A DNA stretch of 47,710 bases from a virus. Within the stretch, counting starts at the first letter, position 1; each line of letters begins with the position of its first letter. The notes beneath the pieces are model-generated. The model ran no database searches. It was not told the DNA's origin and saw only the letters and a program-made list of their open reading frames with translations. Below, in pieces: positions 2,248-47,710 of the stretch. The stretch lies in the IMG/VR virus record IMGVR_UViG_3300034013_000487, positions 1-47,710 of that record; one strand, written 5' to 3'. The translations under genes and the position numbers were made by a program.

Positions 2248-2435
2248 TGACACGCAAGGATTATGTCGCAACCGCAGAAATTCTAAAGTATGCAAGCGAT
2301 AAAATGCACCCCGCTTTATTTTCTAAAATCGTAAATGATTTTGCTCAAATGTTTGCGGTTGATAATGAACGATTTGATGTAAAACGATTTCACGAAGCGA
2401 GTGGGTATCATGTTCCTAACTTCACTTCAAGATAA
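2244..2435 (+). CDS. C-terminal half of the same two-part family
   Basis: A 63-residue helical protein. YVATAEILKYASDKMHPALF and FAQMFAVDNERFDVKRF match, in order, YYIAARILSEAKEGMTEEVY and FALLFSHDSYRFDPERF of the fused protein at 25200-25709. It overlaps the previous gene (ATGA), so the two halves are translated together. The shared helix-turn-helix-like core occurs in many actinophage proteins of unknown function. Confidence 0.7.
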   Translation: MMTRKDYVATAEILKYASDKMHPALFSKIVNDFAQMFAVDNERFDVKRFHEASGYHVPNFTSR

Positions 2436-2541
2436 AGTAAAACGAATTCAGGAATTGCGCCGCAGTAATGCGGCGCAACCTGTTCGTAATAAAAAGAAAT
2501 ACACACGCAAGATCAAACACAAAAATAAATATTCAGAGTAG
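2410..2541 (+). CDS. Small, very basic protein
   Basis: A 43-residue protein with about 15 Lys/Arg residues (IQELRRSN, RNKKKYTRKIKHKNKY). It starts inside the end of the preceding gene in another frame. The composition suggests nucleic-acid binding, but there is no motif. Last gene of the P2 operon. Confidence 0.5.
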   Translation: MFLTSLQDKVKRIQELRRSNAAQPVRNKKKYTRKIKHKNKYSE

Positions 2542-2640
2542 CGCATAAATATGCAGCTGCCCTCTCTTTTGTGGGGGGTCCAGTGTGAATTACGTCACAT
2601 TTTAAAAATACCCTGAAAATTCGGCGTGTCGATTTTGATC
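2542..2640 (+). promoter_or_regulatory. Composite intergenic control module 3
   Basis: A perfect CRP-like palindrome TGTGA-ATTACG-TCACA sits at 2584-2599. Its centre contains the first half (TTACGT, 2590-2595) of the bipartite element, whose second half CCTGAAA is at 2612-2618 (N16). One GGCGTGTCG lies at 2623-2631, ten bases before the promoter box. Here the palindrome overlaps the upstream half-site, instead of following the downstream half as in modules 1, 2, 4 and 5. Confidence 0.6.
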
Positions 2641-2662
2641 TGTCAGTCCATTCTGCTATACT
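2641..2662 (+). promoter_or_regulatory. PafBC/RecA-NDp-like promoter P3
   Basis: TGTCAG (2641-2646), 10 bases, TATACT (2657-2662) with an extended -10 TGC. The leader AACCAACGAAAGG precedes the ATG at 2691. It carries the full ten-base complement of the loop of the small RNA candidate at 9134-9284. Confidence 0.75.
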
Positions 2663-2690
2663 TGCCACTTAACCAACGAAAGGCTAACTA

Positions 2691-2900
2691 ATGGATAATT
2701 TTACTGTTGCTTGCTTGAACTATGAAATTTGTGGTGCTCAAGAAACTTTTGATAACGATGCAGAATATGAAATTTATGGCGATGACTATATTTGTGCTGA
2801 ATGCTATGCATCTGAGGAAATGGAATTCTTTGAAACTATAGGCTGGTCTGATAGCGACGCTCTTGCTTCCGCTGGCCACGGTATGGATGAGGATTACTAA
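2691..2900 (+). CDS. Small acidic zinc-ribbon-like protein
   Basis: A 69-residue acidic protein with Cys residues in a ribbon-like layout (ACLNYEIC near residues 8-14, ICAECYA near 36-42). The start follows P3 with a GAAAGG Shine-Dalgarno. The stop is followed by one base and then the start of the GP88 protein. The Cys pairs suggest a structural zinc. Function unknown. Confidence 0.7.
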   Translation: MDNFTVACLNYEICGAQETFDNDAEYEIYGDDYICAECYASEEMEFFETIGWSDSDALASAGHGMDEDY

Positions 2901-2901
2901 T

Positions 2902-3651
2902 ATGTCAGACGTCACCGCTATAATTACCCCTATGAAACTGAAACGCTCCAACGATAGAAAGGTGGCTAACCTTGTCACAAAAAATGGAAAGCAAGCCGCA
3001 ATTGCGAACACGTTCGGTCTCCCTGCTGGAAAGGCTTACTCATGCCCTGGTGCCACTAGTATTTGTGAGAGCGTTTGCTACGCAGGAAAACTTGAAAAGC
3101 TATTCCCAGGAGTAAAAACTAATCTGCTCCACAATTGGGCCCTACTTAAGGACGCCGATAGCGAAACCATGGTCCGCCTATTAGAAGAGATGATTGTTGA
3201 TTTTGTCACTGATTGTGATAAGAAGAATGCGCCAAAGTTATTCCGTATCCACTGGGACGGGGATTTCTTTAGCGATACTTATACATATGCGTGGAAGACT
3301 GTTATTGAAAACCATTCCGATATTCAGTTTTGGGTGTATACACGTGTAAAGTCTGCAGCGCTTATTATCAAGGATGTTGCTAATCTTTCACTGTACTATT
3401 CTACGGATGATGAAAATAAAGAAATAGCATTCGATTTAAAAAAGAATTCTAAGGTCCGCCTGGCCTACCTTGGAAAGACATTTGCTTCAACCGAAGACAC
3501 AATGAAAGAGTTAACGGGCAAGCCTGGCGCTAAGTGTCCTGAGAATATGAAAAGCATTCCGCTAATCTCTAGCAATGGGTCCGCATGTGTATCTTGTGGT
3601 CTCTGTGTTTACGGTAAAGCCGATATTAGATTTTCTGCGAGTAAAAAATAA
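2902..3651 (+). CDS. GP88-family protein (actinophage gene product 88)
   Basis: A 249-residue protein that I recognise as the gene product 88 family of mycobacteriophages. The diagnostic stretches are TFGLPAGKAYSCPGATSIC, CYAGKLE, FRIHWDGDFFS and FWVYTR, with a Cys-rich end (CVSCGLC). The conserved Cys residues suggest a bound metal or iron-sulfur cluster. The activity of the family is not known to me. I chose ATG 2902, directly after the preceding stop. The longer frame from 2863 would add 13 residues that lie over the upstream gene. Confidence 0.8.
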   Translation: MSDVTAIITPMKLKRSNDRKVANLVTKNGKQAAIANTFGLPAGKAYSCPGATSICESVCYAGKLEKLFPGVKTNLLHNWALLKDADSETMVRLLEEMIVDFVTDCDKKNAPKLFRIHWDGDFFSDTYTYAWKTVIENHSDIQFWVYTRVKSAALIIKDVANLSLYYSTDDENKEIAFDLKKNSKVRLAYLGKTFASTEDTMKELTGKPGAKCPENMKSIPLISSNGSACVSCGLCVYGKADIRFSASKK

Positions 3652-3800
3652 TGATTGATATTATTGGATCTGTTATTGCAATTATATTAATTGCATTCTT
3701 GTGCTCACCAATTGTGTTGGCCGTGTACATGTGGAATGGGGCCAAAATAGATAACGATGGTGACGGGAAAGAAGATTTGCCTAATCGTTGGGATAAGTAA
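3651..3800 (+). CDS. Small membrane protein with EF-hand-like Asp motif
   Basis: A 49-residue protein. Residues 3-27 form one transmembrane helix (IIGSVIAIILIAFLCSPIV). The tail carries DNDGDGKEDLPNRWD, which matches the calcium-binding loop pattern DxDxDGxxD of EF-hand and dockerin motifs. It begins in the stop of the GP88 gene (TAATG). Function unknown. The calcium loop would face away from the N-terminal helix. Confidence 0.65.
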   Translation: MIDIIGSVIAIILIAFLCSPIVLAVYMWNGAKIDNDGDGKEDLPNRWDK

Positions 3801-3801
3801 C

Positions 3802-3854
3802 GGCGTGTCGAGTTGACAATTGTCAGCTCGGCCCCCAATATTGTGGGGGTTTTT
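3802..3854 (+). terminator. Rho-independent terminator after the P3 operon
   Basis: CCCCC (3832-3836) pairs with GGGGG (3845-3849) and is followed by five T. Just upstream lie one GGCGTGTCG (3802-3810) and a palindromic GAGTTGACAATTGTCAGCTC-type hairpin (3810-3829). This is the clearest terminator of the first 5 kb. Confidence 0.8.
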
Positions 3855-3942
3855 CCACAGGCTTACGAGAGTTATCCACAGACCCTGAAAATTTGTGATT
3901 AATCTCACAAAAGCTGCGACACGCCGAGAATGGATTAGGTAA
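3855..3942 (+). promoter_or_regulatory. Composite intergenic control module 4 with DnaA-box-like site
   Basis: The bipartite element TTACGA-N15-CCTGAAA spans 3863-3890. Inside its spacer sits TTATCCACA (3872-3880), the consensus DnaA box. A perfect CRP-like palindrome TGTGA-TTAATC-TCACA (3894-3909) follows after three bases. An inverted GGCGTGTCG copy (CGACACGCC) lies at 3917-3925. The promoter box begins 33 bases after the palindrome. Confidence 0.6.
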
Positions 3943-3964
3943 TGTCAGTGCCCTATGCTAAAAT
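3943..3964 (+). promoter_or_regulatory. PafBC/RecA-NDp-like promoter P4
   Basis: TGTCAGTG (3943-3950), total spacer of 10 bases, TAAAAT (3959-3964) with an extended -10 TGC. The leader CAACCAACGAAAGG precedes the ATG at 3993. Confidence 0.7.
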
Positions 3965-3992
3965 ACTCTTATCAACCAACGAAAGGTAATCT

Positions 3993-4217
3993 ATGTCTAA
4001 TCTAATGACAGTTCCACACACAGTAACTTTCGAGGCCAGTATTGACCTTGATAAAATACCTGCTAACTTACTACCTGCATTACTAAAACTTAATGAAACA
4101 GATTTACTTACTATGTGTAAGGAAGCAACACTACACGCACTTACTGAGTCTAATTTATTAAAAATTGCTAATGAAAATAACACTTGGGCTGAAGTAACAA
4201 TTAAGGAAGGTAACTAA
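3993..4217 (+). CDS. Small protein, unknown
   Basis: A 74-residue protein. The N-terminus (TVPHTVTFEASIDLDKIP) looks like a beta strand with a repeated polar pattern, and the rest is helical (NLLPALLKLNETDLLTMC). The start follows P4 with a GAAAGG site. Two bases separate its stop from the next gene, which has its own AAGGAAGG site. No family recognised. Confidence 0.7.
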   Translation: MSNLMTVPHTVTFEASIDLDKIPANLLPALLKLNETDLLTMCKEATLHALTESNLLKIANENNTWAEVTIKEGN

Positions 4218-4219
4218 CA

Positions 4220-4486
4220 ATGGGAAATAACACTGCGCTAGATTTAGCAAGCGAGTTCGATTTAGAACAAGGTATCGCTTATCACTTACAGGGTAATCAT
4301 TACCCGCCCGTTCCACTATCTATGGTGCAACCTTGCATCGAGGCTATTGACGCTTGGTGGGAAGAAGATTCAGATAGGCTGATCGAAATGCCTGAAGGCG
4401 TATCTTATCGTGGAGATAAGTTCGCACCCGCTCACGCAATAATTGACCAACACCACCTCCACGCTTGGCTACAAGAAAGTGACTAA
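4220..4486 (+). CDS. Small acidic protein, unknown
   Basis: An 88-residue acidic protein rich in His and Trp (HLQGNHYPPVPLS, WWEEDSDRL, DQHHLHAWLQ). The Shine-Dalgarno is AAGGAAGG at the end of the preceding gene. Several clustered His residues could bind metal, but no catalytic motif is clear. Last gene of the P4 operon. Confidence 0.7.
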   Translation: MGNNTALDLASEFDLEQGIAYHLQGNHYPPVPLSMVQPCIEAIDAWWEEDSDRLIEMPEGVSYRGDKFAPAHAIIDQHHLHAWLQESD

Positions 4487-4531
4487 GGTCACACAATAAG
4501 TTTCTCAAATACTGAGATAGGGCTAGACAAA

Positions 4532-4553
4532 TGTCAGACCCCAATGTTATACT
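4532..4553 (+). promoter_or_regulatory. PafBC/RecA-NDp-like promoter P5
   Basis: TGTCAG (4532-4537), 10 bases, TATACT (4548-4553) with an extended -10 TGT. Its leader (AACAAAGAAAAGAGG) is the only one that lacks the CAACGAAA box. No CRP-like palindrome is seen upstream. Confidence 0.7.
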
Positions 4554-4581
4554 ATCCACCTAACAAAGAAAAGAGGCAAAA

Positions 4582-4764
4582 ATGACAATAGATAATCATC
4601 TGTATCAGGTTGGCGATTTATTCACCACCCTAAAGTCAAAGAAAACTGGTGTGATTAAGGAAATCCACCCACAGGCATCTGGCTCGGTGCGTGTGCTACT
4701 AGAAATGCCAACGAAGGAAACTCGTTGGACTTCGGTATCCGCTAAGACACTACTAGGCGCATAG
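4582..4764 (+). CDS. Small beta-rich basic protein, unknown
   Basis: A 60-residue protein with alternating beta pattern (VGDLFTTLKSKKTGVIKEI, SVRVLLEMPTKETRWTSV). Its size and layout recall small SH3-like or KOW-like folds that bind nucleic acids or proteins. That is only a structural impression. Single-gene transcript from P5. Confidence 0.7.
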   Translation: MTIDNHLYQVGDLFTTLKSKKTGVIKEIHPQASGSVRVLLEMPTKETRWTSVSAKTLLGA

Positions 4765-4842
4765 CCTAAATCGAAACAGGGACAGTTTAGGAAAGTATCT
4801 AGTCCAATGTCGTAAGTAAGAACTTTCCTCCCTTCGGGGAAA
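4765..4842 (+). other. Structured intergenic sequence with UUCG hairpin
   Basis: GGAAAGT (4790-4796) can pair with ACTTTCC (4822-4828) across a long loop. Right after it, CCC-TTCG-GGG forms a stable UUCG tetraloop hairpin (about 4830-4839). This sits immediately before promoter P6. It may terminate the P5 transcript, although it lacks a clear T-run. Confidence 0.35.
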
Positions 4843-4864
4843 TGTCAGACCCCCCTGCTATACT
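4843..4864 (+). promoter_or_regulatory. PafBC/RecA-NDp-like promoter P6
   Basis: TGTCAG (4843-4848), 10 bases, TATACT (4859-4864) with an extended -10 TGC. The spacer is nearly the same as in P5 (ACCCCCCTGC against ACCCCAATGT). The leader contains CCAACCAACGAAAGG before the ATG at 4900. Confidence 0.75.
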
Positions 4865-4899
4865 ATCCATAACAACAACCAACCAACGAAAGGTATCAA

Positions 4900-5316
4900 A
4901 TGTCAAGAGCAATCACAGTAAAGGTGGCAACACCTAAAGTAATCAAGGCACTAGAAACTCGTCTAGCAACACTAGAAAAAGACTATGCTAGTCAAACAGC
5001 AAATGAAGCAAAGTATCAGAAGGCAGTAGAAGCGTGGCGTAAGGAAATTGGAAAGTGGGCTATTGCCAACTTCTCAAAGGCTGAGAACCTTCGCACAAAC
5101 TATCGCAACTGGAACAACACTCTCAATGTTGATTTTGACATCATCACAAAGGAAGGCAACTTCCCTACTGAACCTGAAAAGGATTTTGAGGTTATCCATC
5201 AGCACAATTATCGTGAGATGAAAGAGGACATTACAAATGCTCTCACCATCTTAAAGATGACAGATGAGGAAACAGTAAATGCTTCTACAATGAAGCAGAT
5301 TGCTAAGTATCTCTAA
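4900..5316 (+). CDS. Helical, coiled-coil-like protein, unknown
   Basis: A 138-residue, mostly helical protein. Residues about 12-60 look like a coiled coil (VIKALETRLATLEKDYASQ, KYQKAVEAWRKEIGKW). The middle is polar (NLRTNYRNWNNTLNVDF), and a C-terminal helix pair ends TMKQIAKYL. This type of protein is common in actinophage early regions and I cannot assign a function. Transcribed from P6. Confidence 0.75.
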   Translation: MSRAITVKVATPKVIKALETRLATLEKDYASQTANEAKYQKAVEAWRKEIGKWAIANFSKAENLRTNYRNWNNTLNVDFDIITKEGNFPTEPEKDFEVIHQHNYREMKEDITNALTILKMTDEETVNASTMKQIAKYL

Positions 5317-5439
5317 ATAATTTGGGGGGCAGAACTAAAGTCCTGAACCCAATCGTTCTCGCATAACGCTAAATTGCGAACGACCTGAGTAAGTCGCCAA
5401 ACTGCTCTCCTTCGGGAAACTACTAACAAAGGTAATACA
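5317..5439 (+). other. Structured intergenic region, possible leader or attenuator
   Basis: No PafBC-type promoter lies here. CGTT(CT)CGCA at 5354-5363 can pair with TGCGAACG at 5375-5382, giving a bulged 8-bp hairpin. CTCC-TTCG-GGA near 5407-5416 is another UUCG hairpin like the one before P6. The gene at 5440 is therefore probably read through from P6 via this element. Confidence 0.35.
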
Positions 5440-5700
5440 ATGGCAAATCGTTTCAGAGTAGAAATCTACGATGCAAACAAACTTAATGACATCACGATTT
5501 ATTCGGATCAAGGTGTTGATAAAGAATATTTAACTGAATTAGTATTCAGCAACATCAGAAACTTTAGCGGAAAGATTAACGCTTATGTTTTTGATAACGT
5601 GAAGAAAAAGAAAACAACTGCAATGTTTCTTGATGAGAGCACAGTTGAATTTAATAAGAACTTAATTAAAAATGCGACAAAGGTAGAGGTGGGGATTTAA
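5440..5700 (+). CDS. Small protein, unknown
   Basis: An 86-residue mixed alpha/beta protein (FRVEIYDANKLNDITIYSD at the start, NLIKNATKVEVGI at the end). It has a weak AAAGG site before the ATG. Nothing in it matches a family I know. Terminal gene of the P6 unit. Confidence 0.7.
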   Translation: MANRFRVEIYDANKLNDITIYSDQGVDKEYLTELVFSNIRNFSGKINAYVFDNVKKKKTTAMFLDESTVEFNKNLIKNATKVEVGI

Positions 5701-6930: not shown

Positions 6931-7004
6931 GGTCTGTTAGCTCAGTTGGTTAGAGCGCTACCCTGTCACGGTAGAGGTCGACGGTTCAAGTCCGTTACAG
7001 ATCG
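6931..7004 (+). tRNA. tRNA-Asp (anticodon GTC)
   Basis: The cloverleaf can be drawn. The acceptor GGTCTGT pairs with ACAGATC with one G-T wobble. The D arm is GCTCAGTTGGTTAGAGC. The anticodon stem CTACC/GGTAG encloses loop CTGTCAC with anticodon GTC, and the T arm GACGG/CCGTT encloses TTCAAGT. CCA is not encoded. It is the only tRNA of the plus arm. An open frame from 6946 crosses it and is not a gene. Confidence 0.93.
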
Positions 7005-7036
7005 CAAATCGCCCGCAATGTTAAGGGAACCAAAAC

Positions 7037-26535: not shown

Positions 26536-26555
26536 ATTACTTTTACCTTTTCTAG

Positions 26556-26637
26556 TACCCGAAGTCGGACTTGAACCGACATGCGATGAAGCAACAAATT
26601 TTAAGTCTGTCGTGTATACCGATTCCACCATTCGGGC
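26556..26637 (-). tRNA. tRNA-Leu (anticodon TAA)
   Basis: Class II tRNA with a variable arm. The acceptor GCCCGAA pairs with TTCGGGT (one G-T). The anticodon stem ACAGA/TTTGT encloses CTTAAAA, anticodon TAA. The T arm GTCGG/CCGAC encloses TTCAAGT. Five bases separate it from tRNA-Asn. CCA is not encoded. Confidence 0.92.
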
Positions 26638-26642
26638 GTACG

Positions 26643-26715
26643 CTGGTCCACCAGGTCTCGATCCTGGGACATCCAAATTAACAGTTTGGCGCTCTACCAA
26701 CTGAGCTATGGACCA
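26643..26715 (-). tRNA. tRNA-Asn (anticodon GTT)
   Basis: The acceptor TGGTCCA pairs with TGGACCA. The D arm is GCTCAGTTGGTAGAGC. The anticodon stem CCAAA/TTTGG encloses CTGTTAA, anticodon GTT. The T arm is CCAGG/CCTGG. The first of a two-tRNA transcript with tRNA-Leu. Confidence 0.93.
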
Positions 26716-27227: not shown

Positions 27228-27410
27228 CTACTCCTCATTTCTATTTCTAATCGGATATGTGATTGCCCATGCAATTAATGTACATATAATTGCATACCCC
27301 ACTATGGTCTTTGCTGAGCCATCAAGAACTACCCAGGCAATAAACATACCTAGAAGTGTCCATAGCTGGTCAATCATATCTTGAAGTACTCTTTTAATAT
27401 AATTAATCAT
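27228..27410 (-). CDS. Small two-helix membrane protein, possible holin or antiholin
   Basis: A 60-residue protein with two membrane helices (LWTLLGMFIAWVVL and IVGYAIICTLIAWAIT) and charged ends (IRNRNEE). MINYIKRVLQDMIDQLW is typical of actinophage proteins annotated only as membrane protein. The pair with the preceding gene suggests a role in lysis. It overlaps the adhesin gene end by eight bases. Confidence 0.62.
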   Translation of the reverse strand: MINYIKRVLQDMIDQLWTLLGMFIAWVVLDGSAKTIVGYAIICTLIAWAITYPIRNRNEE

Positions 27411-30144
27411 TTTTTCTTCTCCTTATTCCCTTAGAGTCGCCAGAGGCTCCTCCTCCACTTGATCCACCTGAGTTCCCGCCAGAACCTCCCGTAGATCCTC
27501 CAGTGGAACCTGTCGCAGCTCCAACAGCATTTAACGCTGCTCCTGCTGCTACAACTGTTGCTACAACCATTTCGGTTGCTTCTTCTCTTTCGCTTTCTGT
27601 CATATCTGCGCCTATGCTACCCAATGCTTCTAATGCTGCTCCAGGGTCATTAAATAATTCTGCTGCAAATGCTGCTGGGTCGGAAACTAGTTCTACTTGA
27701 ACGGCAACCTCTGCTGCAATAACAACAGCCTCACCATTTTCGGATGTACGAACATCAACTGGTGTCTGTGGTGGTAGATCTGCTAATTTAATTCCAGCTT
27801 CGGCTACCTGTTCTTTACTAAGATTTTCACCTTCTGGAACTGATTGAATTAACGCATCAGCAACAATATCTTTTTCTGCTTCAGATAATTTACCATCTGA
27901 ACTAGCCAATGCAACAATTGCTGCAACATCTTCTTTTGATACTTCTCCATCTGACGCAAGTGCTTCTAGTACAGCTTCTTGATCTGCTACAGAAACTTTG
28001 CCATCTTCTGCCAATGCTTCAATTAATTGATCAGTTTCTTTTGCATCAATCTCTCCATCTGCTGCCATAGATTCTGCAATTGCATCAACCTCTTCGCTAT
28101 CAATTTTTCCATCTGCTAATGCATCATCAACTGTATTAGTTACATCTTCTTCTGATCCCGTCACAGGCTCTGTGTCTACTGGCTCTGTTTCCACAGGCTC
28201 TGTGTCTACTGGCTCTGTTTCCACAGGCTCTGTGTCTACTGGCTCTGTTTCCACAGGCTCTGTGTCTACTGGCTCTGTTTCCACAGGTGTGGTATCAACT
28301 GGTTCTGTTTCCACAGGTGTGGTATCAACTGGTTCTGTTTCCACAGGCTCTGTGTCTACTGGCTCTGTTTCCACAGGTGTGGTATCAACTGGTTCTGTTT
28401 CCACAGGTGTGGTATCAACTGGTTCTGTTTCCACAGGTGTGGTATCAACTGGTGTGGTAGTTACGGGTGTAGTGTCTACAGGTGGCACGACTACGGGTGT
28501 AGTGTCTACAGGTGGCACGACTACGGGTGGTTCAACTGGTGTAGGTGGAGCAGGAGCTGGTGCAGGAACTGCATTAATTACTGCTTGTGCGGTAGCAACA
28601 ACCGTTGGTGCTGCCAATACTGTTTCTACTGCTGTTGAAACAACTGAAATATCTGCTACTTTTGTAGTTAATGTTGTAGTTGCTGTTGTTAATGCAGTCA
28701 CAGTGTTTGCAGAAACAGTAGCGATTACAGGAATTGCTACTGCGGCCGTTGTATTTGCTGTATTTGTTGCAACAATCGCCGTAACTGCTGAGTTTAATGT
28801 AGCAATTTGTGCATTTGCTGTATCAATTGCCGCTAGTACTGTTGCATTGTCTGGATCAGGAGTAGGTGTAAATGCAGCACCTTGATTAATTGTTCCAGTA
28901 AACCCTGTAGTAGTGCTTGTATTAGCAATAGCTGTTACGGCACCCCCAGTTGTCTCTCTTACATTAAACCTAGCGCCATTTGGTATTGGTCCAGTCACGC
29001 TTACATCTGCTTGCCATGCGCCATCTGCTGGGTTAACATCGGCATTAAATCGAACTTGAGTCATCTGTGTCTCGGCAGTAGTAAGAGGATATACTCTAAG
29101 GTCCCACGCAATAGATAGAGTATTGGTTGTTGTTGAATAAGTAATACCAGATCCATTACTCCATGTAGTCCAGTCATACCCCGCTACAGAAATTGAAGGG
29201 GCATTAGGCGTTGTATGATATGTACTACCTTCATTTACTCCAAAGGTAATAGTTGCATTAGATCCTACGTAAACATTATTATATGTGACTCCACCCATTT
29301 GTAAATTAAATGGAAGGTTCATGCGGATACCCGCATCATCTGTATTTGCTAAAACATTTGATGTTGTTCCAACTGTGGCTACCAAAGCATTGACTGCATC
29401 TTGAGCATTATTAATAGCAACATTTGCCTGAGTTAATTGTGTCTGTGCCTCTGTAGTTGCAGTAGTTACTGCTGCTACCGCCGTGGTTGCCGTTGCTACT
29501 GTGGCAGTTGCGGTATCTACTGTTGCCTGAGCTACCTGTATTGCAGTAGAGGCTGTTGCGGCCTGTGCTACTTCTGTTGTAATTGCGGTGGCCACTTGAG
29601 TAACGGTGGTTGGCGTTTCCGTCATTAAAGGGGTTGCTGTTGCTATAACTGTTGCGGTTGCAGATTCAACTACTGGGATTGCTGCCGTTACGGCAGTTTG
29701 GGCTACAACAACTTCTGGGGTTTGAGTTGTAGCACTTACTGGGATCGCTGCTACTGCTTGGGTAACGGCTGTTACAGCTGATGTAACTCCCTGTGTAACC
29801 GCAGTTGCTGTTTCTACCGCCGTAGACACATTTGATACTTCTGATACCGCAGTAGTTGCTGCAGTGACCGCAGTATTTGCTTCAGCTACGGCTGCATTAG
29901 ATACTGTTACTGCTTGGACAGCTGTTGCTATTGTTACTGTTGCCGTGTCTGAGGCCTGTGCTGCTTGTGCTACTTCTGTTGTTGCTGTTGCAAGCGCTGT
30001 ATTAACTGCTGACTGTGCGGGACTTACTACAACTTGTTCGGATGGTTGTGGCACATCCTCAGCATAAGCAAGGCTTGGACCGAAAAGAAAAAGCCAGCCC
30101 ACAATAAAAAGGCTGGTTAAAAAGTACTTAATCCTTTTGGTCAA
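27403..30144 (-). CDS. Large secreted repeat protein, probable adhesin or surface fibre
   Basis: A 913-residue protein from a TTG start with AGGAG upstream. Residues 1-28 are a signal peptide (SLAYA cleavage). Residues 30-260 and 450-540 are Ala/Thr/Val heptad-like repeats. Residues 265-440 form a globular beta region (VYVGSNATITFG). Residues about 548-670 are Pro/Val/Glu/Thr repeats (PVETEPVDT units). Residues 680-790 carry five EF-hand-like repeats (ADGKIDSEEVDAIAE), and the end is Gly/Ser-rich with a basic tip. Such a secreted, repeat-rich protein could coat the host cell or be a virion fibre. It stands between lysis genes. Confidence 0.75.
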   Translation of the reverse strand: MTKRIKYFLTSLFIVGWLFLFGPSLAYAEDVPQPSEQVVVSPAQSAVNTALATATTEVAQAAQASDTATVTIATAVQAVTVSNAAVAEANTAVTAATTAVSEVSNVSTAVETATAVTQGVTSAVTAVTQAVAAIPVSATTQTPEVVVAQTAVTAAIPVVESATATVIATATPLMTETPTTVTQVATAITTEVAQAATASTAIQVAQATVDTATATVATATTAVAAVTTATTEAQTQLTQANVAINNAQDAVNALVATVGTTSNVLANTDDAGIRMNLPFNLQMGGVTYNNVYVGSNATITFGVNEGSTYHTTPNAPSISVAGYDWTTWSNGSGITYSTTTNTLSIAWDLRVYPLTTAETQMTQVRFNADVNPADGAWQADVSVTGPIPNGARFNVRETTGGAVTAIANTSTTTGFTGTINQGAAFTPTPDPDNATVLAAIDTANAQIATLNSAVTAIVATNTANTTAAVAIPVIATVSANTVTALTTATTTLTTKVADISVVSTAVETVLAAPTVVATAQAVINAVPAPAPAPPTPVEPPVVVPPVDTTPVVVPPVDTTPVTTTPVDTTPVETEPVDTTPVETEPVDTTPVETEPVDTEPVETEPVDTTPVETEPVDTTPVETEPVDTEPVETEPVDTEPVETEPVDTEPVETEPVDTEPVTGSEEDVTNTVDDALADGKIDSEEVDAIAESMAADGEIDAKETDQLIEALAEDGKVSVADQEAVLEALASDGEVSKEDVAAIVALASSDGKLSEAEKDIVADALIQSVPEGENLSKEQVAEAGIKLADLPPQTPVDVRTSENGEAVVIAAEVAVQVELVSDPAAFAAELFNDPGAALEALGSIGADMTESEREEATEMVVATVVAAGAALNAVGAATGSTGGSTGGSGGNSGGSSGGGASGDSKGIRRRKND
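28165..28445 (-). repeat. 30-bp tandem repeats encoding PVETEPVDTE/T
   Basis: About nine in-frame copies of a 30-bp unit (10 residues) with two alternating variants, ending in degenerate 15-bp units to 28470. The near-identity suggests recent expansion, and copy number is likely to vary between relatives. Spacers are absent, so this is not a CRISPR array. Confidence 0.85.
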
Positions 30145-32887: not shown

Positions 32888-32910
32888 TATATCTCCATTA
32901 TACTATTTTG

Positions 32911-32983
32911 TGTCCCCAGATGGTATCGAACCATCGACCCGCAGATTAAAAGTCTGCTGCTCTACCAGCTGAGCTATAGGAAC
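32911..32983 (-). tRNA. tRNA-Lys (anticodon TTT)
   Basis: The acceptor GTTCCTA pairs with TGGGGAC with two wobble pairs. The anticodon stem GCAGA/TCTGC encloses CTTTTAA, anticodon TTT. The T arm GATGG/CCATC encloses TTCGATA. One base separates it from tRNA-Arg. Confidence 0.93.
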
Positions 32984-32984
32984 G

Positions 32985-33056
32985 TACCCCTGGCTGGGAT
33001 CGAACCAGCGACCTACAGATTAGAAGTCTGTTGCTCTTCCGCTGAGCTACAAAGGT
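32985..33056 (-). tRNA. tRNA-Arg (anticodon TCT)
   Basis: The acceptor ACCTTTG pairs with CAGGGGT (two G-T pairs). The anticodon stem ACAGA/TCTGT encloses CTTCTAA, anticodon TCT. The T arm GCTGG/CCAGC encloses TTCGATC. AGA is a favoured codon in AT-rich phage genes, so this tRNA may raise its supply. Confidence 0.92.
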
Positions 33057-33057
33057 G

Positions 33058-33131
33058 TGCGGCAGGTAGGACTCGAACCTACGATTACCGAATTATGAGT
33101 TCGGGGCTTTAACCAACTAAGCTACTGGCGC
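33058..33131 (-). tRNA. tRNA-Met (anticodon CAT), acceptor mismatch
   Basis: The acceptor GCGCCAG pairs with CTGCCGC except for one C-C at the fourth position. The anticodon stem CCGAA/TTCGG encloses CTCATAA, anticodon CAT. The T arm GTAGG/CCTAC encloses TTCGAGT. It could be elongator Met, or Ile after lysidine modification. Its 5' 23 bases lie inside the end of the carbamoyltransferase gene. First of the Met-Arg-Lys cluster, with one-base gaps. Confidence 0.85.
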
Positions 33132-41255: not shown

Positions 41256-41346
41256 TTTTAATCCTTTTGTCCCATTTGTCTATGAATAATCCAAGTGGAT
41301 ACCCAATAGTAAATCCTAGCATTAATCCTAATAAAAAGATAGTCAT
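41242..41346 (-). CDS. Very small membrane protein
   Basis: A 34-residue protein with one membrane helix (IFLLGLMLGFTIGYPLGLFI) and a basic tail (KWDKRIKNGGR). The ATG overlaps the stop of the oxygenase gene, and its end overlaps the next by 14 bases. Function unknown. Confidence 0.6.
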   Translation of the reverse strand: MTIFLLGLMLGFTIGYPLGLFIDKWDKRIKNGGR

Positions 41347-42299
41347 TATATCAACCTTCCATCTATATAAGTGCTGTTACTGCTTTCAATATAAACTTTG
41401 ATTGCTGGGTAATCGTAGGGATCTTGTCCGTCAATCAAAACCATTCTTTCGTTGCTACCATTATTAACTTCATCATTTTCTCTGTCTTCTTGCATTGATT
41501 CCCATTTTGCAAGACCGTATGTATCTCTTCCTTGTATCCATTTTTCAGACCCATCATAGTACCAAGATATAAATACACGCAAAAGATATTTATTACTACC
41601 GCTTACAACTGGCTTTGCGGCATGCCAAAATGGATGGAAAGAAGGAAATATTGTCATGTCTCCAGCCTTTGGCTTATAGGTAATAAGTTTATTTTCTTTG
41701 TCGTTTAAAAACTGTATTTCCCCACCTTCATAGTCATCGTTTAAATATATAGTTAAAGAAAGCATTTGTTTAAAGCCAGGCTCGTCTTCATGGTATCTAG
41801 AGCTATCCGAATGAAAGTTTATTGCAAAATCTTTATCTGGGTATATGTTGTGTTTTAATGCATCAATTTGTTGCAGGGTTAGTTTTCTTTTAGAATTATC
41901 TGGTTCTATATGAGAAATATATTCTGTAGAGAGCCCAAAGTTTTTAACATAATCAGGCCACTCTACAACATTTTTCCATTCAGACATATAGTCATTAAAA
42001 ACAAAATCAATTACATTTACAATTTCTTGTTTTGTTTTAATCTGCTCAAATATAGTTTGTTTTTTTAACTCATCTTCTTCGGAGGACATTAATTTTTTGC
42101 CAACAAGATCGGGAGCAAAGTTAGTCATTATTCCAAAATCATACCACTTTACCCAGTCACGAATAAACCCTTTACCAGAAGGCTCGTGCTGATCCTTTAT
42201 GTCTCCTTCTGAAATTTTAATAATATTTAAAATATTTTCAACATTATTAAACAGCCCTTTGTATACATTAATACCAGGCAATAAATTAATTTTTTCCAT
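41346..42299 (-). CDS. 2-oxoglutarate/Fe(II) oxygenase, tandem copy 2
   Basis: A 317-residue protein. The catalytic C-terminal domain has H163 and D165 (NFHSDSSRYH), H226 (FWHAAK) and R241 (LLRVF). YLNDDYEGGEIQFLND is the hallmark prolyl-hydroxylase strand. Residues 1-130 are a second domain shared with the next gene. It is a tandem paralogue of 42299-43270, with the same C-terminal end (YIDGR). The target may be a phage or host protein or a sugar. Start touches the upstream stop. Confidence 0.87.
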   Translation of the reverse strand: MEKINLLPGINVYKGLFNNVENILNIIKISEGDIKDQHEPSGKGFIRDWVKWYDFGIMTNFAPDLVGKKLMSSEEDELKKQTIFEQIKTKQEIVNVIDFVFNDYMSEWKNVVEWPDYVKNFGLSTEYISHIEPDNSKRKLTLQQIDALKHNIYPDKDFAINFHSDSSRYHEDEPGFKQMLSLTIYLNDDYEGGEIQFLNDKENKLITYKPKAGDMTIFPSFHPFWHAAKPVVSGSNKYLLRVFISWYYDGSEKWIQGRDTYGLAKWESMQEDRENDEVNNGSNERMVLIDGQDPYDYPAIKVYIESSNSTYIDGRLI

Positions 42300-43270
42300 T
42301 ACATAGATCTTCCATCTACGTAGATGTGGTTTTCTTTAGATACTTCAATTTTAATAGAAGGATTTACATCTTGCCATTTTGTTCCTTCAATTCTAACCTC
42401 ACGGTCATAGATTCCAGTAGATACCTTTTCTTGTACGCTATCATCTACCATTTGCAACCACTTTTCTTCTCCATGTTTTTCTATTCCCTCAAACCATTCT
42501 TTTGAACCTGGGTAGTTCCATTGTGCAAAAACTCTAACAAAAACTTTCTTGTTTCCTTCAGTTACGGCTTTAGCTGAGTGGAAGTAAGGTATACCAGAAG
42601 GGAAAACGGTTACATCTCCTACAGCTGGCTTGTATGTAACAACCTTTGGAACTTCGTCAATTTCATTTAAAAATTCAACTTCACCACCAGTATAATCGTC
42701 ATTTACATAGATAGTAATTGTTATAATCTGTTGTGATCTTGGCTGACCAACTCTGTGCTTGTGTGCATCTGTGTGAAATGTAATTGCTAGATTTTTTTCT
42801 GCATGGATGTCATGCTTAAGAATTTCTATCACAGAATAATGCATTCTTCCAGCACCATCCTCATTTAGCTTCCAGTTGTCTATGTACTCTGGCCAGTATC
42901 CAGATTCAGACCACTCATTAATATAGTCTTTAAATACAACTGAAAATATAGCATAAAGTTTTTCTCTAAACTCGTATAAAAACTTTATGTTTTCATCATT
43001 AATATCTTCTGGCATTTTTTTAAAGTTATAAAATGTTTTTTTACCAAAAGTATGCCAAGGAACCCATTCATTTAAAGGGGAAATATCTTCCATTTCTTTT
43101 GGCAAAACTCCGTGGTTATCGCCTCTTGTTGATAGTTCTTCGTGAGTAATCTCAAATTGGCTTGTGTCATTTTCATACAAATCCATTAAATTATAAAATC
43201 TTTTTAGCTCTTCTTTATTAAACATATCTTTGTATATAACTACTTGTGGCATTACTTGATATTTATTCAT
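42299..43270 (-). CDS. 2-oxoglutarate/Fe(II) oxygenase, tandem copy 1
   Basis: A 323-residue protein. H166 and D168 (TFHTDAHKHR), H231 (YFHSAK) and R246 (FVRVF) are the site. YVNDDYTGGEVEFLNE corresponds to the strand of its paralogue. The two copies align over their full length but have diverged clearly, so the duplication is old and both have been kept. The end is YVDGRSM. It overlaps the preceding gene by eight bases. Confidence 0.87.
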   Translation of the reverse strand: MNKYQVMPQVVIYKDMFNKEELKRFYNLMDLYENDTSQFEITHEELSTRGDNHGVLPKEMEDISPLNEWVPWHTFGKKTFYNFKKMPEDINDENIKFLYEFREKLYAIFSVVFKDYINEWSESGYWPEYIDNWKLNEDGAGRMHYSVIEILKHDIHAEKNLAITFHTDAHKHRVGQPRSQQIITITIYVNDDYTGGEVEFLNEIDEVPKVVTYKPAVGDVTVFPSGIPYFHSAKAVTEGNKKVFVRVFAQWNYPGSKEWFEGIEKHGEEKWLQMVDDSVQEKVSTGIYDREVRIEGTKWQDVNPSIKIEVSKENHIYVDGRSM

Positions 43271-43568: not shown

Positions 43569-43765
43569 TATCCAACCGTATACCTTGTCTCATGCCCGTC
43601 TTTACATTTCCAATACATTTCCATTGTTTGATTATTGAATTGATATGAATCAACGTATAGATCACATTTAGAGCACGGTCTCATATTTTCTATACTCTCA
43701 ACTCTATTATCAAATACTGGTTCTTCTGCAATAGGCTTATTTAAAAATTCGTTAAGATTTGGCAT
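43568..43765 (-). CDS. Small zinc-ribbon protein
   Basis: A 65-residue protein from ATG 43765, which has GAGG nine bases upstream. CSKC near residue 31 and the later Cys-His pair (WKCKDGHETRYTVG) form a C-x2-C...C-x3-H ribbon. It overlaps the RecA end by 14 bases. Function unknown. Confidence 0.66.
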   Translation of the reverse strand: MPNLNEFLNKPIAEEPVFDNRVESIENMRPCSKCDLYVDSYQFNNQTMEMYWKCKDGHETRYTVG

Positions 43766-44756
43766 CAATATCCTCAATTAGTTTATCAACAACTTCTGGG
43801 TTGTCTCTTAAATAAGCAACAGCCTTTGCACGTCCCTGTAGTCTTTCTCCATTAACTGTATACCAGGCTCCACCTTTTTCAACCGCTCCAACCATTTCTG
43901 CAACATCTAAGGTCTCTCCAACTAGGTCTACACCTAGTGACTCTCCTTGGTAATAGAAATCGTACTGTCCAGATAAGTTAGGGGGGCCGAGTTTGTTGTA
44001 ATCAATAATCCAATTGACTGGTCTGCCAACCCTTTGTTCAATAATTTTGTCACCAACTTTAATGCCAGCTTTGATAGCATTAGCTTCAGCCTCAGAAGAC
44101 CAAAGTTTAATGACGGTGGAAGAGAAGAACTTGACTGCCATTCCTCCTGTCGGTATGTGGGAGGCATGCATAGATCCAAACTGATTTCTCTGTTGTGAGA
44201 TGAGTACCAATAGTGTGTTCTTGTTTGCATAGTTTAACATCTTGACTGCGTGAGTCATATCCTTTGCTTCAGCGCCGATTTGCTTTGTGTCTTGCAAATC
44301 TTTCATTTCATTTCCATCTTTTTCAAAATAAATTGCTGGGAGTAGCGCTGATATAGAATCAACTACAATAATATCAACACCAGCGTCCATCAACTTAGTA
44401 GCAACATCTACCATATCATTAACTGTTTTAGCTGTGGAATAGATAAGGGAAGAGGAATCTACTCCGAGCATCTCTGCCCAAGACTGATCGTATGAAGCCT
44501 CAGCATCAATCCAAGCACAAGTCTTTCCTTCTTTTTGTGCAAGCGCAATCATTTGTAAACAGAATGAAGACTTTCCAGCAGACTTATTTCCCCATACCAG
44601 AACTTGTCTTCCGTATCCAAGGCCGCCTTTTAATGCCATGTTGAGTCCAATACTTGGCGTCTTCTGCTTTTCAACTTTTACATCTTGCGCTGCTTTTACT
44701 CTTGCTCTTGTTTTTGGATCTAATCCTGCTAGGATTTCATCAATCGCTATAGTCAT
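43752..44756 (-). CDS. RecA-like recombinase
   Basis: A 334-residue RecA homologue. GNKSAGKSS at 56-64 is Walker A, and VDIIVVDSIS with D133 is Walker B. KQKTPSIGLNMALKGGLGYG is the canonical RecA opening. LISQQRNQFGSM corresponds to the loop region that contacts DNA. It binds ssDNA and promotes strand exchange. Its own promoter is probably the TATAAT near 44778 with a 27-base AGAGAG leader. Whether it can serve as a LexA coprotease is unknown. Confidence 0.93.
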   Translation of the reverse strand: MTIAIDEILAGLDPKTRARVKAAQDVKVEKQKTPSIGLNMALKGGLGYGRQVLVWGNKSAGKSSFCLQMIALAQKEGKTCAWIDAEASYDQSWAEMLGVDSSSLIYSTAKTVNDMVDVATKLMDAGVDIIVVDSISALLPAIYFEKDGNEMKDLQDTKQIGAEAKDMTHAVKMLNYANKNTLLVLISQQRNQFGSMHASHIPTGGMAVKFFSSTVIKLWSSEAEANAIKAGIKVGDKIIEQRVGRPVNWIIDYNKLGPPNLSGQYDFYYQGESLGVDLVGETLDVAEMVGAVEKGGAWYTVNGERLQGRAKAVAYLRDNPEVVDKLIEDIDAKS

Positions 44757-44786: not shown

Positions 44787-45176
44787 TTAAAATAAATTGC
44801 CGTGAAGCATTGGTCTTACTTTATTTTTTTCCATTTTTTTAAATAGGACTTCATCTAGGCTGTTCTCTACAAATCCACCATTACGCATTGAAGCATATAG
44901 ATCAAGAGTTCTAATTAGAATATCAACCATCTCTTCTACAATTTCTTCAGAGCCCTTATTCTTTCTCATTGCCTCAAGAACCTCTGTAACTTCAGAGTGA
45001 ATTAGTGCTATCTTACTTCCAAAAACATCAAAGTTTTTTGGCTTATCCCAAAATCCTTTTTCAATAGCAGTCTCATGAAGTAAAGCAGAAAGAACATCCA
45101 GTCCAAAATCTGTTACTAGTTCTATTTCTTTATTCGAAACTTTCAATGAGCTGGTCGTTATTGAATCCTGGACCAT
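44787..45176 (-). CDS. MazG-like nucleotide pyrophosphohydrolase
   Basis: A 129-residue all-alpha protein. E62 and E65 (SEVTEVLEA) and E82 and D85 (EEMVDILIRTLD) form the metal-binding ExxE...ExxD site of the MazG/dUTPase superfamily. The tail KMEKNKVRPMLHG is typical of the phage group. It hydrolyses nucleotide triphosphates, perhaps dUTP or (p)ppGpp-related pools. It overlaps the preceding gene by 47 bases. Confidence 0.86.
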   Translation of the reverse strand: MVQDSITTSSLKVSNKEIELVTDFGLDVLSALLHETAIEKGFWDKPKNFDVFGSKIALIHSEVTEVLEAMRKNKGSEEIVEEMVDILIRTLDLYASMRNGGFVENSLDEVLFKKMEKNKVRPMLHGNLF

Positions 45177-45636
45177 CTTGGTTTTCCTCCTTAACGTATG
45201 GAAACTGCCTCTTGTATGTACTATTACCCCATCCTTGAATATTCCAAGGTCTTCTAATTGAAAAAAACCCTATGCAATTTCCTTCTTGAATCATCCTATC
45301 TCCCTCTTCTTCATTACATAATCTGAACTTTACCTTGTCTGTCTCCTGATCATACTGAACAAGGACATGGCCTCCTAGATCTTTAATGTAATCTGTGTAG
45401 CTTTCATCATAAGGGTTTATATTTTCATCGTTTTTAATAGGTTCTGAGTTTCTAATTGGCATCATATCTTCTCGATTAAAAGCAGCTTGCGGCATTTGGC
45501 TAAGCATAAAACCCAAAAGAATTGAAGAGTTTAGTTTCTGATAAATATCTGTAACGTCTGATTTTCTTTCGTTTACTACATCTTCTCTAACATGCTTGCC
45601 GTCAGAGGTGTACACGTCATCATCATTAGTTGTCAT
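45130..45636 (-). CDS. Tandem family member D (168 residues)
   Basis: A protein of a four-copy family. Shared blocks are YQKLNSSILLGFMLSQM, TDYIKDLGGHVLVQYDQETD and IGFFSIRRPWN. The N-terminal helix and the central DYIKDLGGH motif align with member B (45823-46248). It has an extra C-terminal tail (KEENQDGPGFNND). The family is not one I know. Confidence 0.72.
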   Translation of the reverse strand: MTTNDDDVYTSDGKHVREDVVNERKSDVTDIYQKLNSSILLGFMLSQMPQAAFNREDMMPIRNSEPIKNDENINPYDESYTDYIKDLGGHVLVQYDQETDKVKFRLCNEEEGDRMIQEGNCIGFFSIRRPWNIQGWGNSTYKRQFPYVKEENQDGPGFNNDQLIESFE

Positions 45637-45823
45637 CTTTATCCTTTAGCTTAAACTTAAACGATTGATTATCCGAATCGTAATCAACCTGCAGTTCTTT
45701 ATCAACAGTTGCCGCATCTAAAAATAATTTGCTTGGCACTATAATTTCTTTATGTATCTCTAAAATTGCAACTAATATTTTTGAAACATTAAGAGATGCA
45801 AAAATATCTTGTTCTTCTGTCAC
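45626..45823 (-). CDS. Tandem family member C, short form
   Basis: A 65-residue member. FASLNVSKILVAILEIHKE corresponds to the N-terminal helix of the family and LQVDYDSDNQSFKFKLKD to the strand pair after the missing DYIKDLGG block. It is a shortened copy that overlaps both neighbours by one to eleven bases. Confidence 0.66.
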   Translation of the reverse strand: MTEEQDIFASLNVSKILVAILEIHKEIIVPSKLFLDAATVDKELQVDYDSDNQSFKFKLKDKDDN

Positions 45824-46248
45824 TATCTTTCCTCCTGATTTTGCTTAATGCTGTGGACATTCCACGGCCTTCTTATTGAAAAAAATCCTACAGAATTGCC
45901 TTTTATTTGAGAATCAATTCCTTCTTCTCTAGTTGTTAAAGTAAGCAATACGTCGTCTGACTGCGGATCATATTTTACAAGAACATGCCCGCCAAGGTCC
46001 TTGATATAATCAAAAAAATCTTCATCGTACGGGTTAACTGATGTATTGTTGGGTGCAATTTCGTATTCATTAATTTGAATGACTTCATCTCTCTTAAAAG
46101 ATATTGTTCCAAAATTTTGAAAAATCATTGTAAGTAGAGTTGAGGCATTTAGTCTATGAAAGACTTCCTCTATCTCAGAGTTTCTTTTGTGACACTCATC
46201 TTTTGTTAAAGTAATTCCGTCCTCTAAATATATGTTATGAGTGGGCAT
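45823..46248 (-). CDS. Tandem family member B (141 residues)
   Basis: Complete copy of the family. FHRLNASTLLTMIFQNFGTI, FDYIKDLGGHVLVKYDPQSD and VGFFSIRRPWNVHS are almost the same as member D. The surrounding residues have diverged. Function unknown. Start overlaps the end of member A. Confidence 0.72.
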   Translation of the reverse strand: MPTHNIYLEDGITLTKDECHKRNSEIEEVFHRLNASTLLTMIFQNFGTISFKRDEVIQINEYEIAPNNTSVNPYDEDFFDYIKDLGGHVLVKYDPQSDDVLLTLTTREEGIDSQIKGNSVGFFSIRRPWNVHSIKQNQEER

Positions 46249-46594
46249 AGTCGTTCCATCTAGATCTCAAGCAGACATAGCCAAGATCATTACCGATTCC
46301 TGACCTCGCCTCTGCTTCTTCTTTTGACATTAAATTAAAAGTAAATATTTGATTATCAAAATCATAATCTATTTGTGCATATCCTCCTCGCTCTTTAATG
46401 TAATCCATGTATGTATCCATGTAGGTGTCTATTGCATCAAAATCTTGAAGATCTTCTGGCTTATGATAATTCATAATTTTATCTAGCTCTTTTTTTGGAA
46501 TTGACACTGGTCCGACTGATTTTAATACGGCTGTAAGCAAATTAGTTGCATTAAATCTTTTTACTAACTTCTCTAGCTCGGTGGGTTCGTTCAT
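46235..46594 (-). CDS. Tandem family member A (119 residues)
   Basis: The most upstream member. VKRFNATNLLTAVLKSVGPV and MDYIKERGGYAQIDYDFDNQ align with B and D, while the end (LGYVCLRSRWNDYAH) matches IGFFSIRRPWN. The AGAGG site overlaps the end of the polymerase gene region. Confidence 0.7.
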   Translation of the reverse strand: MNEPTELEKLVKRFNATNLLTAVLKSVGPVSIPKKELDKIMNYHKPEDLQDFDAIDTYMDTYMDYIKERGGYAQIDYDFDNQIFTFNLMSKEEAEARSGIGNDLGYVCLRSRWNDYAHS

Positions 46595-46634: not shown

Positions 46635-47710
46635 TCATAGTATTTCCTTAATGTTTAAAGTTCCGTCATCTAGCTTTGCTAGTTTGACTTTACATTTCAT
46701 GCCTTCACGCATTTTAGCAAGAGTCATTTTATACATTGCTGGGAAAGCAATTGCTCTAGTTAAGTTCTTGTCTTTATCTGAGAGAACTATGTGACTCATT
46801 TGCTTACCAGCCTTTGTTGTGTATGGAGTAAAGTTTACCACAATGTACTCGTCTTCTTCAAGGTCGTATTTTTTTCTATATAAATAGTCTACAAAAAGGT
46901 CGGTGGAGTCTGGGTTTATATCAGAAACCTTAATGTACCTTGCAATTCTATTATCCCCGACAAGGATAAAGTACATTTGTCCTGTTTCAATTTGTGTCTG
47001 CTCTGTGTGGAATAAACCTATTGATCCAGTCTCATCTACCAGCTCTACTCTTGCCCAGCCGTTTCCTCGTTTAATAGACTTAACCATTCCAAACATAACA
47101 AATGATCCCAGGTCATCAAACTCTTCAATTGGTCTTGCCTGTGCTTTAATTCTTGGCGGAATGCCTTCAAGATTAAATGTTGGTATACCTAGGTATTCGT
47201 AGTAATTGTCTTTTTCATTTCCTTGCCTTTTGTTATCAGTAAACGCAGCACCGCCGATGGAGTTAAGAGCAGCAATAGCACGGCTATTAATGCCAGAACC
47301 CTTTTTCGATGCCTTATCAATAAAGTCAGAATAGTCACTGAACGGTCTTCTTTCTATTATCTTGTTTGCAATGCTGTCTGAAATAAACTTTACTTCAGCC
47401 AATCCAAATCTAATTGCGTTATCTTGTAGTGAAAAATAAACCTGAGATTCGTTGATATGGGGGAGTAATACTTTTAGGCCAAGTCTCTTTGACTCAATTA
47501 AATATTCCGTTCTTGCATCTTTATCATTTTCGTTTTTAAGAACTGAAAACATGAACTCAAGAGGATAATAGGACTTAAGCCAAGCAGTATAATAACTAAG
47601 CATAGAGTAAGCAACAGCATGGGAACGGTTGAAAGAATAACCAGCATGCGCTTCAAAGTCGTGCCAAAGCGCCTCTGCTTTTTTCTTAGTAATGTGTTCT
47701 GAAGCCCCAG
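46635..47710 (-). CDS. dnaE: DNA polymerase III alpha subunit, C-terminal part
   Basis: The frame runs off the right edge, so only the last 358 residues or so are seen. FNRSHAVAYSMLSYYTAWLK near the edge is the conserved C-terminal block of bacterial replicative polymerases (DnaE), and SIANKIIERRPFSDYSDFID follows. An OB-fold region (FVMFGMVKSIKRGNGWARVE) ends the protein. It is the phage replicase and probably uses host clamp and loader. It reads leftward into the four-copy family. Confidence 0.93.
   Translation of the reverse strand, partial: GASEHITKKKAEALWHDFEAHAGYSFNRSHAVAYSMLSYYTAWLKSYYPLEFMFSVLKNENDKDARTEYLIESKRLGLKVLLPHINESQVYFSLQDNAIRFGLAEVKFISDSIANKIIERRPFSDYSDFIDKASKKGSGINSRAIAALNSIGGAAFTDNKRQGNEKDNYYEYLGIPTFNLEGIPPRIKAQARPIEEFDDLGSFVMFGMVKSIKRGNGWARVELVDETGSIGLFHTEQTQIETGQMYFILVGDNRIARYIKVSDINPDSTDLFVDYLYRKKYDLEEDEYIVVNFTPYTTKAGKQMSHIVLSDKDKNLTRAIAFPAMYKMTLAKMREGMKCKVKLAKLDDGTLNIKEIL

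Follow-up and report, generated by a model that had tools for sequence, protein, structure and literature searches.

Replicases of the C family (DnaE) are common in actinophages, and to our knowledge the holoenzyme partners of these phage enzymes are largely unknown. The C-family polymerase core of DNA polymerase III has a very small accessory protein, the theta subunit (HolE; Hot in phage P1). The DNA analysed here, referred to below as the window, is a virus contig of 47,710 bases that carries part of a DnaE gene. The nearest DnaE proteins among cultured phages are those of Streptomyces phages of the Stanwilliamsviridae (51-58% identity). These phages carry a gene of 63-65 aa, annotated as "hypothetical", in the slot next to DnaE (86 + 38 records). 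In the Boydwoodruffvirinae the slot gene is phrog_12174 (Braelyn gene 79, Yaboi gene 83 and Tomas gene 85); like gene C of the window described below, these genes are short (63-65 aa) and have the same core pattern, and they follow DnaE directly, with MazG and RecA further on. Unlike in the window, they are single copies, and long paralogs were not found. In the Loccivirinae (BillNye gp174 and MeganTheeKilla gene 60), the same slot holds a gene of 63 aa with a similar pattern (FLAAAVEEAGGEIRIPYD...), and BillNye has a dUTPase where the window has MazG.

The slot gene was absent from two more distant phages with DnaE beside RecA, Rhodococcus phage E3 and Mycobacterium phage Mikro, the latter having a release-factor gene at that place; DnaE as a class therefore does not need such a gene. 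The slot gene is already in databases as an unnamed hypothetical protein and is thus not wholly unseen. We found no paper on it, and its coupling to DnaE, the unity of its cultured and uncultured forms and the existence of paralog cassettes appear to be undescribed in the literature searched.

Gene order in the window

The genes of the locus are as follows.

46635-47603, minus strand: 3' part of the gene for a DnaE-type (C-family) DNA polymerase (phrog_405, 2.7e-41; HHH_6; OB fold)
46235-46594, minus strand: gene A, 119 aa, a long paralog with profile matches to B, D and C
45823-46248, minus strand: gene B, 141 aa, a long paralog with sequence matches to D and A
45626-45823, minus strand: gene C, 65 aa, GTG start, the conserved core member, with a strong Shine-Dalgarno sequence (AGGAGGAAAG)
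45130-45636, minus strand: gene D, 168 aa, a long paralog (profile match) inserted between C and MazG
44787-45176, minus strand: MazG-like nucleotide pyrophosphohydrolase, 129 aa (PF03819, 4.8e-5; phrog_3301, 1.5e-20)
43752-44756, minus strand: RecA-like recombinase, 334 aa, assigned by synteny with the annotated gene in BillNye, Braelyn, Yaboi and Tomas

On the minus strand, the order DnaE, A, B, C, D, MazG, RecA is tightly packed, with overlaps of 14 nt between A and B, 1 nt between B and C, 11 nt between C and D, and 47 nt between D and MazG. Clear Shine-Dalgarno sequences lie upstream of A, C and MazG. The gene that adjoins DnaE in the window is A, not C; it starts 40 nt beyond the DnaE stop and has its own ribosome-binding site (AGAGGA). 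The DnaE frame continues beyond the contig end; in contig L004, which is identical, it is seen at its full length of 1095 aa (2327-5614). The window DnaE is 57% identical to its counterpart in Streptomyces phage BillNye. In some relatives, an extra ORF of 112-134 aa from another family lies between DnaE and A and starts on the DnaE stop (L007, 5293-5661; L008, 5320-5658; L017, 1658-2008; L019, 2833-3237). It has a conserved C.C..CITNDVLQ.[FY]I motif near its end and is absent from the window.

Elsewhere in the window, a carbamoyltransferase with both domains (PF02543 and PF16861; 33109-34551, minus strand) is an unusual cargo that may serve modification of DNA bases or of the surface. Two adjacent genes of similar size occupy 41346-43270 (minus strand); the one at 41346-42299 matches a 2OG-Fe(II) oxygenase (PF13640), and the one at 42299-43270 looks, by eye, related to it. 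A protein of 913 aa (27403-30144, minus strand) is very acidic (pI 4.05); part of it is repetitive and extensin-like, and it has a weak match to a TerB-like domain. Six tRNA genes are present: Leu and Asn (26555-26715, minus strand), Lys, Arg and Met (32910-33131, minus strand) and Asp (6931-7005, plus strand).

Homology, motifs and database matches of the family

A sequence-only reading of the window had proposed four adjacent homologous genes between the polymerase and MazG, and this was borne out, with the genes at the expected positions on the minus strand. Among the window proteins, B matches D at 1.1e-34 and A at 1.3e-15. Profiles were built from the orthologues of one type each, with the other types left out. 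The A profile recovers B (1e-21), D (2.5e-18), a fifth type, E (1.7e-7), and window C (0.009); the C profile recovers E (1.3e-5) and window A (3e-5); and the E profile recovers A (1e-6) and window C (1.5e-4). In profile-profile comparison (hhalign), C matches all long paralogs with a probability of 98%. By these sequence and profile searches, A, B, C and D are homologous well beyond chance. Type E is a long paralog situated directly before RecA, with MazG or C on its other side, in L018, L019, L067, L093, L100 and L107.

All types have in common a core made up of a helix, a G-[IV]-x-[IV]-P strand, a second helix and a beta hairpin. Two further elements mark the long paralogs (A, B, D and E): a DYIK..GG segment and, at the C terminus, a G[FY]xxxRxxW motif. 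The motifs that had been ascribed to the window genes are only partly general: C has just the helix and the YD hairpin and lacks the DYIK..GG and GFFSIRRPWN blocks. The exact strings DYIKDLGGHVLVxYD and GFFSIRRPWN hold for B and D only, A reading DYIKERGGYAQIDYD and LGYVCLRSRWN. Because the last 16 codons of D overlap the MazG start, the tail that D has in common with C of relatives is the MazG gene in another frame. Gene fusion or paralogy was accordingly rejected for the tail common to D and to C of L007 and others, the DNA showing the overlapped MazG start.

The homology extends to cultured phages. Against the Boydwoodruffvirinae slot protein, hhalign gave P values of 1.5e-7 with the A/E profile and 2.2e-5 with the C profile, compared with best values of 0.06 and 0.007, respectively, in 60 column-shuffled controls. 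Among 394 ORFs of Streptomyces loci, the slot genes were the only matches of the family HMM (Bmoc, 2.3e-4; Braelyn, 0.006). On the strength of these profile comparisons, we consider the family homologous to the Boydwoodruffvirinae slot gene. The Loccivirinae slot genes rank as the top two among 696 ORFs with E values of 0.8 and 2.4, which are not significant alone; hhalign gave P 0.001. Direct searches see less of this relationship: window A-D have no PHROG match at E<1, and phrog_12174 was matched directly by the relative L191 alone (0.084). An apparent second copy in Braelyn was rejected as an antisense match. In 50,697 phage records, tblastn with A-, B-, C- and E-type queries returned chance matches only, and a scan of genome contigs for the family gave no match.

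The earlier reading had not recognised the family, and the AlphaFold2 and profile checks agree with it in that no known sequence family or fold was matched. The model of C (pLDDT 78, pTM 0.49) has three helices plus a beta hairpin; that of B (pLDDT 80, pTM 0.71) has a C-like core, extended by a helix at the N terminus and a helix-strand at the C terminus. With these medium-confidence models, Foldseek found nothing at E<0.001 in PDB or BFVD. The helix-strand-helix-hairpin order might suggest a winged helix, but this idea was dropped, as no match backs it. The PDB sequence search gave no match, its best hit being a tail-tip protein at E 0.14. Nor did A-D or other family members have a credible match in Pfam, PHROGs, NCBIfam or PADLOC. 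The hits to phrog_1264 were set aside: 19 of 31 C members matched it weakly, at best at 0.0013 and over 35 of 110 positions, and window C did not match.

The conserved core gene and its exchanged paralogs

When viral contigs were scanned with C orthologues, 80 loci were recovered, most with C alone. To avoid searching with the answer, a second scan was seeded only with the C-terminal third of DnaE. A family member was present on the downstream side of DnaE at 80 of 80 loci, which are interrelated and not independent trials, with a worst E value of 3e-6. One copy was found at 73 of these loci, two at 3, three at 3 and four at 1. The start of the member overlaps the DnaE stop in a 4-nt ATGA at 71 loci and by 1 nt at 3 more, giving 74/80 at which the two codons overlap. 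In contigs of up to 115 kb, scanned over their whole length, family members are confined to this one locus. MazG was not found between DnaE and RecA in L075, L084, L106, L108, L110 and L114; together with the dUTPase of BillNye, these six contigs indicate that the nucleotide-pool gene of the slot is replaceable.

In a tree of the cores, drawn without branch support values, the short members all fall in one clade, separate from the long ones. Gene C of the window is the orthologue of the single DnaE-coupled gene of most relatives. The description of C as a shortened copy thus has the direction reversed: far from being a degenerate copy, C is the conserved core, and A, B, D and E are longer minority paralogs that are gained, lost, moved and exchanged. 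The link to replication, previously suggested from the position behind the replicase, is supported, all the more so because the core member is coupled to DnaE almost universally.

The arrangement A-B-C-D occurs in the window, L004 and L006, and A-B-C in L007-L017, where D is absent from the place it has in the window. L018 has A-D-C-MazG-E, with D before C, and L019 has A-B-C-MazG-E; C-MazG-E is found in L067 and L093, and C-E in L100 and L107. L103 carries two further long copies ahead of C. The comparison of the window with L006 is instructive as to how these arrangements change. The DNA of the two is 82-100% identical on both flanks and 52-67% identical over A, and the proteins are 52% (A), 94% (B), 97% (C) and 99% (D) identical. 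Window A is closer to A of L014 and L017 (81-84%), and L006 A to that of L018 (81%). Judging from these alignments, gene A is swapped whole by recombination between near-identical phages. B, too, undergoes whole-allele exchange among phages that are otherwise nearly identical. In phages with 98% identity in the C-terminal third of DnaE, identity in A and B is 52-60%; this speaks against a tight interface of the long paralogs with that part of DnaE.

Selection was gauged by gene-wide dN/dS (Nei-Gojobori), for which many pairs are near synonymous saturation; the medians are 0.15 for A, 0.09 for B, 0.15 for C and 0.04 for D (one pair), and 0.10, 0.04 and 0.05 for the neighbours MazG, RecA and DnaE. 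These values are well below 1, so gene-wide positive selection is unsupported. Of the arms race that had been suggested for the tandem copies, positive selection is therefore unsupported at the level of whole genes (dN/dS 0.04-0.15), and the allele exchange at A and B and the variable copies leave room for diversifying or anti-host roles.

Possible roles of the family

In the reading to which we give most weight, with a probability of roughly 45%, the small acidic protein C is translated together with the phage DnaE replicase and is a partner of that enzyme, and A, B, D and E are diversified versions of C. C is best explained in this way because it is kept at DnaE across the sampled clade, is mostly translationally coupled to it, is independent of MazG and is acidic. 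The 102 short members have a median pI of 4.26 and a net charge of -8.6, and all types are acidic (pI 4.2-5.0, net charge -5.5 to -13.5) relative to a median pI of 5.79 for the window genes; binding to protein is thus likelier than binding to DNA. Through translational coupling, C would be made in step with DnaE. From this genomic coupling we infer a physical partnership: C probably binds DnaE or the holoenzyme and would adjust its activity, processivity or interaction with host factors. The long, diversified copies may act on the replicase as C does or compete with it for one interface; they are exchanged as cassettes among related phages. Theta (HolE) offers a works-like analogy only, both proteins being very small beside a C-family polymerase; theta, which binds epsilon, lacks the coupling to dnaE that C has, and for HolE likeness there was no PDB sequence match and no Foldseek match at E<0.001.

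The main rival, which we regard as unlikely, is that the family acts on the host. Its members would be acidic early proteins, DNA mimics or inhibitors, that block a nuclease, a restriction or defence system or a replication factor, the core having a universal target and the long paralogs variable ones. The strong negative charge would fit, as would the copy-number variation and the cassette exchange of A, B and D. In phage T7, small acidic host-takeover genes lie behind the polymerase gene, which counts for this rival, and T7 gp5.9 and Ocr-type proteins may be likened to the family in being small, acidic and near a phage polymerase. The start codon of C-type genes, however, is fused to the DnaE stop, unlike in those proteins, and such near-universal ATGA coupling is unusual for a host-takeover gene; the low dN/dS also speaks against it. 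DNA-mimic anti-restriction proteins are strongly acidic, as the family is, but the trait is not specific, and no fold or sequence of a known DNA mimic was matched in solved structures with the medium-confidence models. Against known anti-phage defence families (PADLOC-DB), there was no significant match over most of a model; the sole match, PDC-M09B, was rejected, as it covers about 50 of 486 positions, concerns A only and also occurs in three control genomes.

Less probable still is a role in the nucleotide-pool arm (regulation of MazG or dUTPase) or in RecA-dependent recombination, rather than at DnaE. In nearly all relatives, the family does have DnaE on one side and MazG or RecA on the other, with E-type paralogs directly before RecA. 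With 65 taxa, the rate co-variation of the family pointed to DnaE rather than RecA (partial r 0.49 vs 0.05), but in smaller sets with more controls it did not, the partial correlations with RecA and MazG being equally high. Yet C persists where MazG was not found (L075, L084, L106 and L110) or where a dUTPase stands instead (BillNye), and its reading frame overlaps that of DnaE, not RecA. We give least credence to the idea that A, B, D and E have no replication role and are selfish or fitness-neutral morons expanding in a highly expressed operon slot. Extra copies occur at just 7/80 DnaE loci and vary in location and number, as morons might, but purifying selection (dN/dS about 0.1) and conserved motifs show that the proteins are functional.

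A replicase partner remains our preferred reading for C. The long paralogs are weakly linked to DnaE in sequence, so that they may instead have roles directed at the host. Extended to the clade, it is possible, if doubtful, that the Stanwilliamsviridae and their uncultured aquatic relatives have an unrecognised co-translated subunit of the C-family replicase, and that some of them have evolved interchangeable paralogous subunits by which the replicase is retuned or protected from host to host. The swapped paralog cassettes mark a variable part of the replication operon in near-identical phages. Since the DnaE-fused gene, so far overlooked, is present in cultured Streptomyces phages, the question is open to bench experiment.
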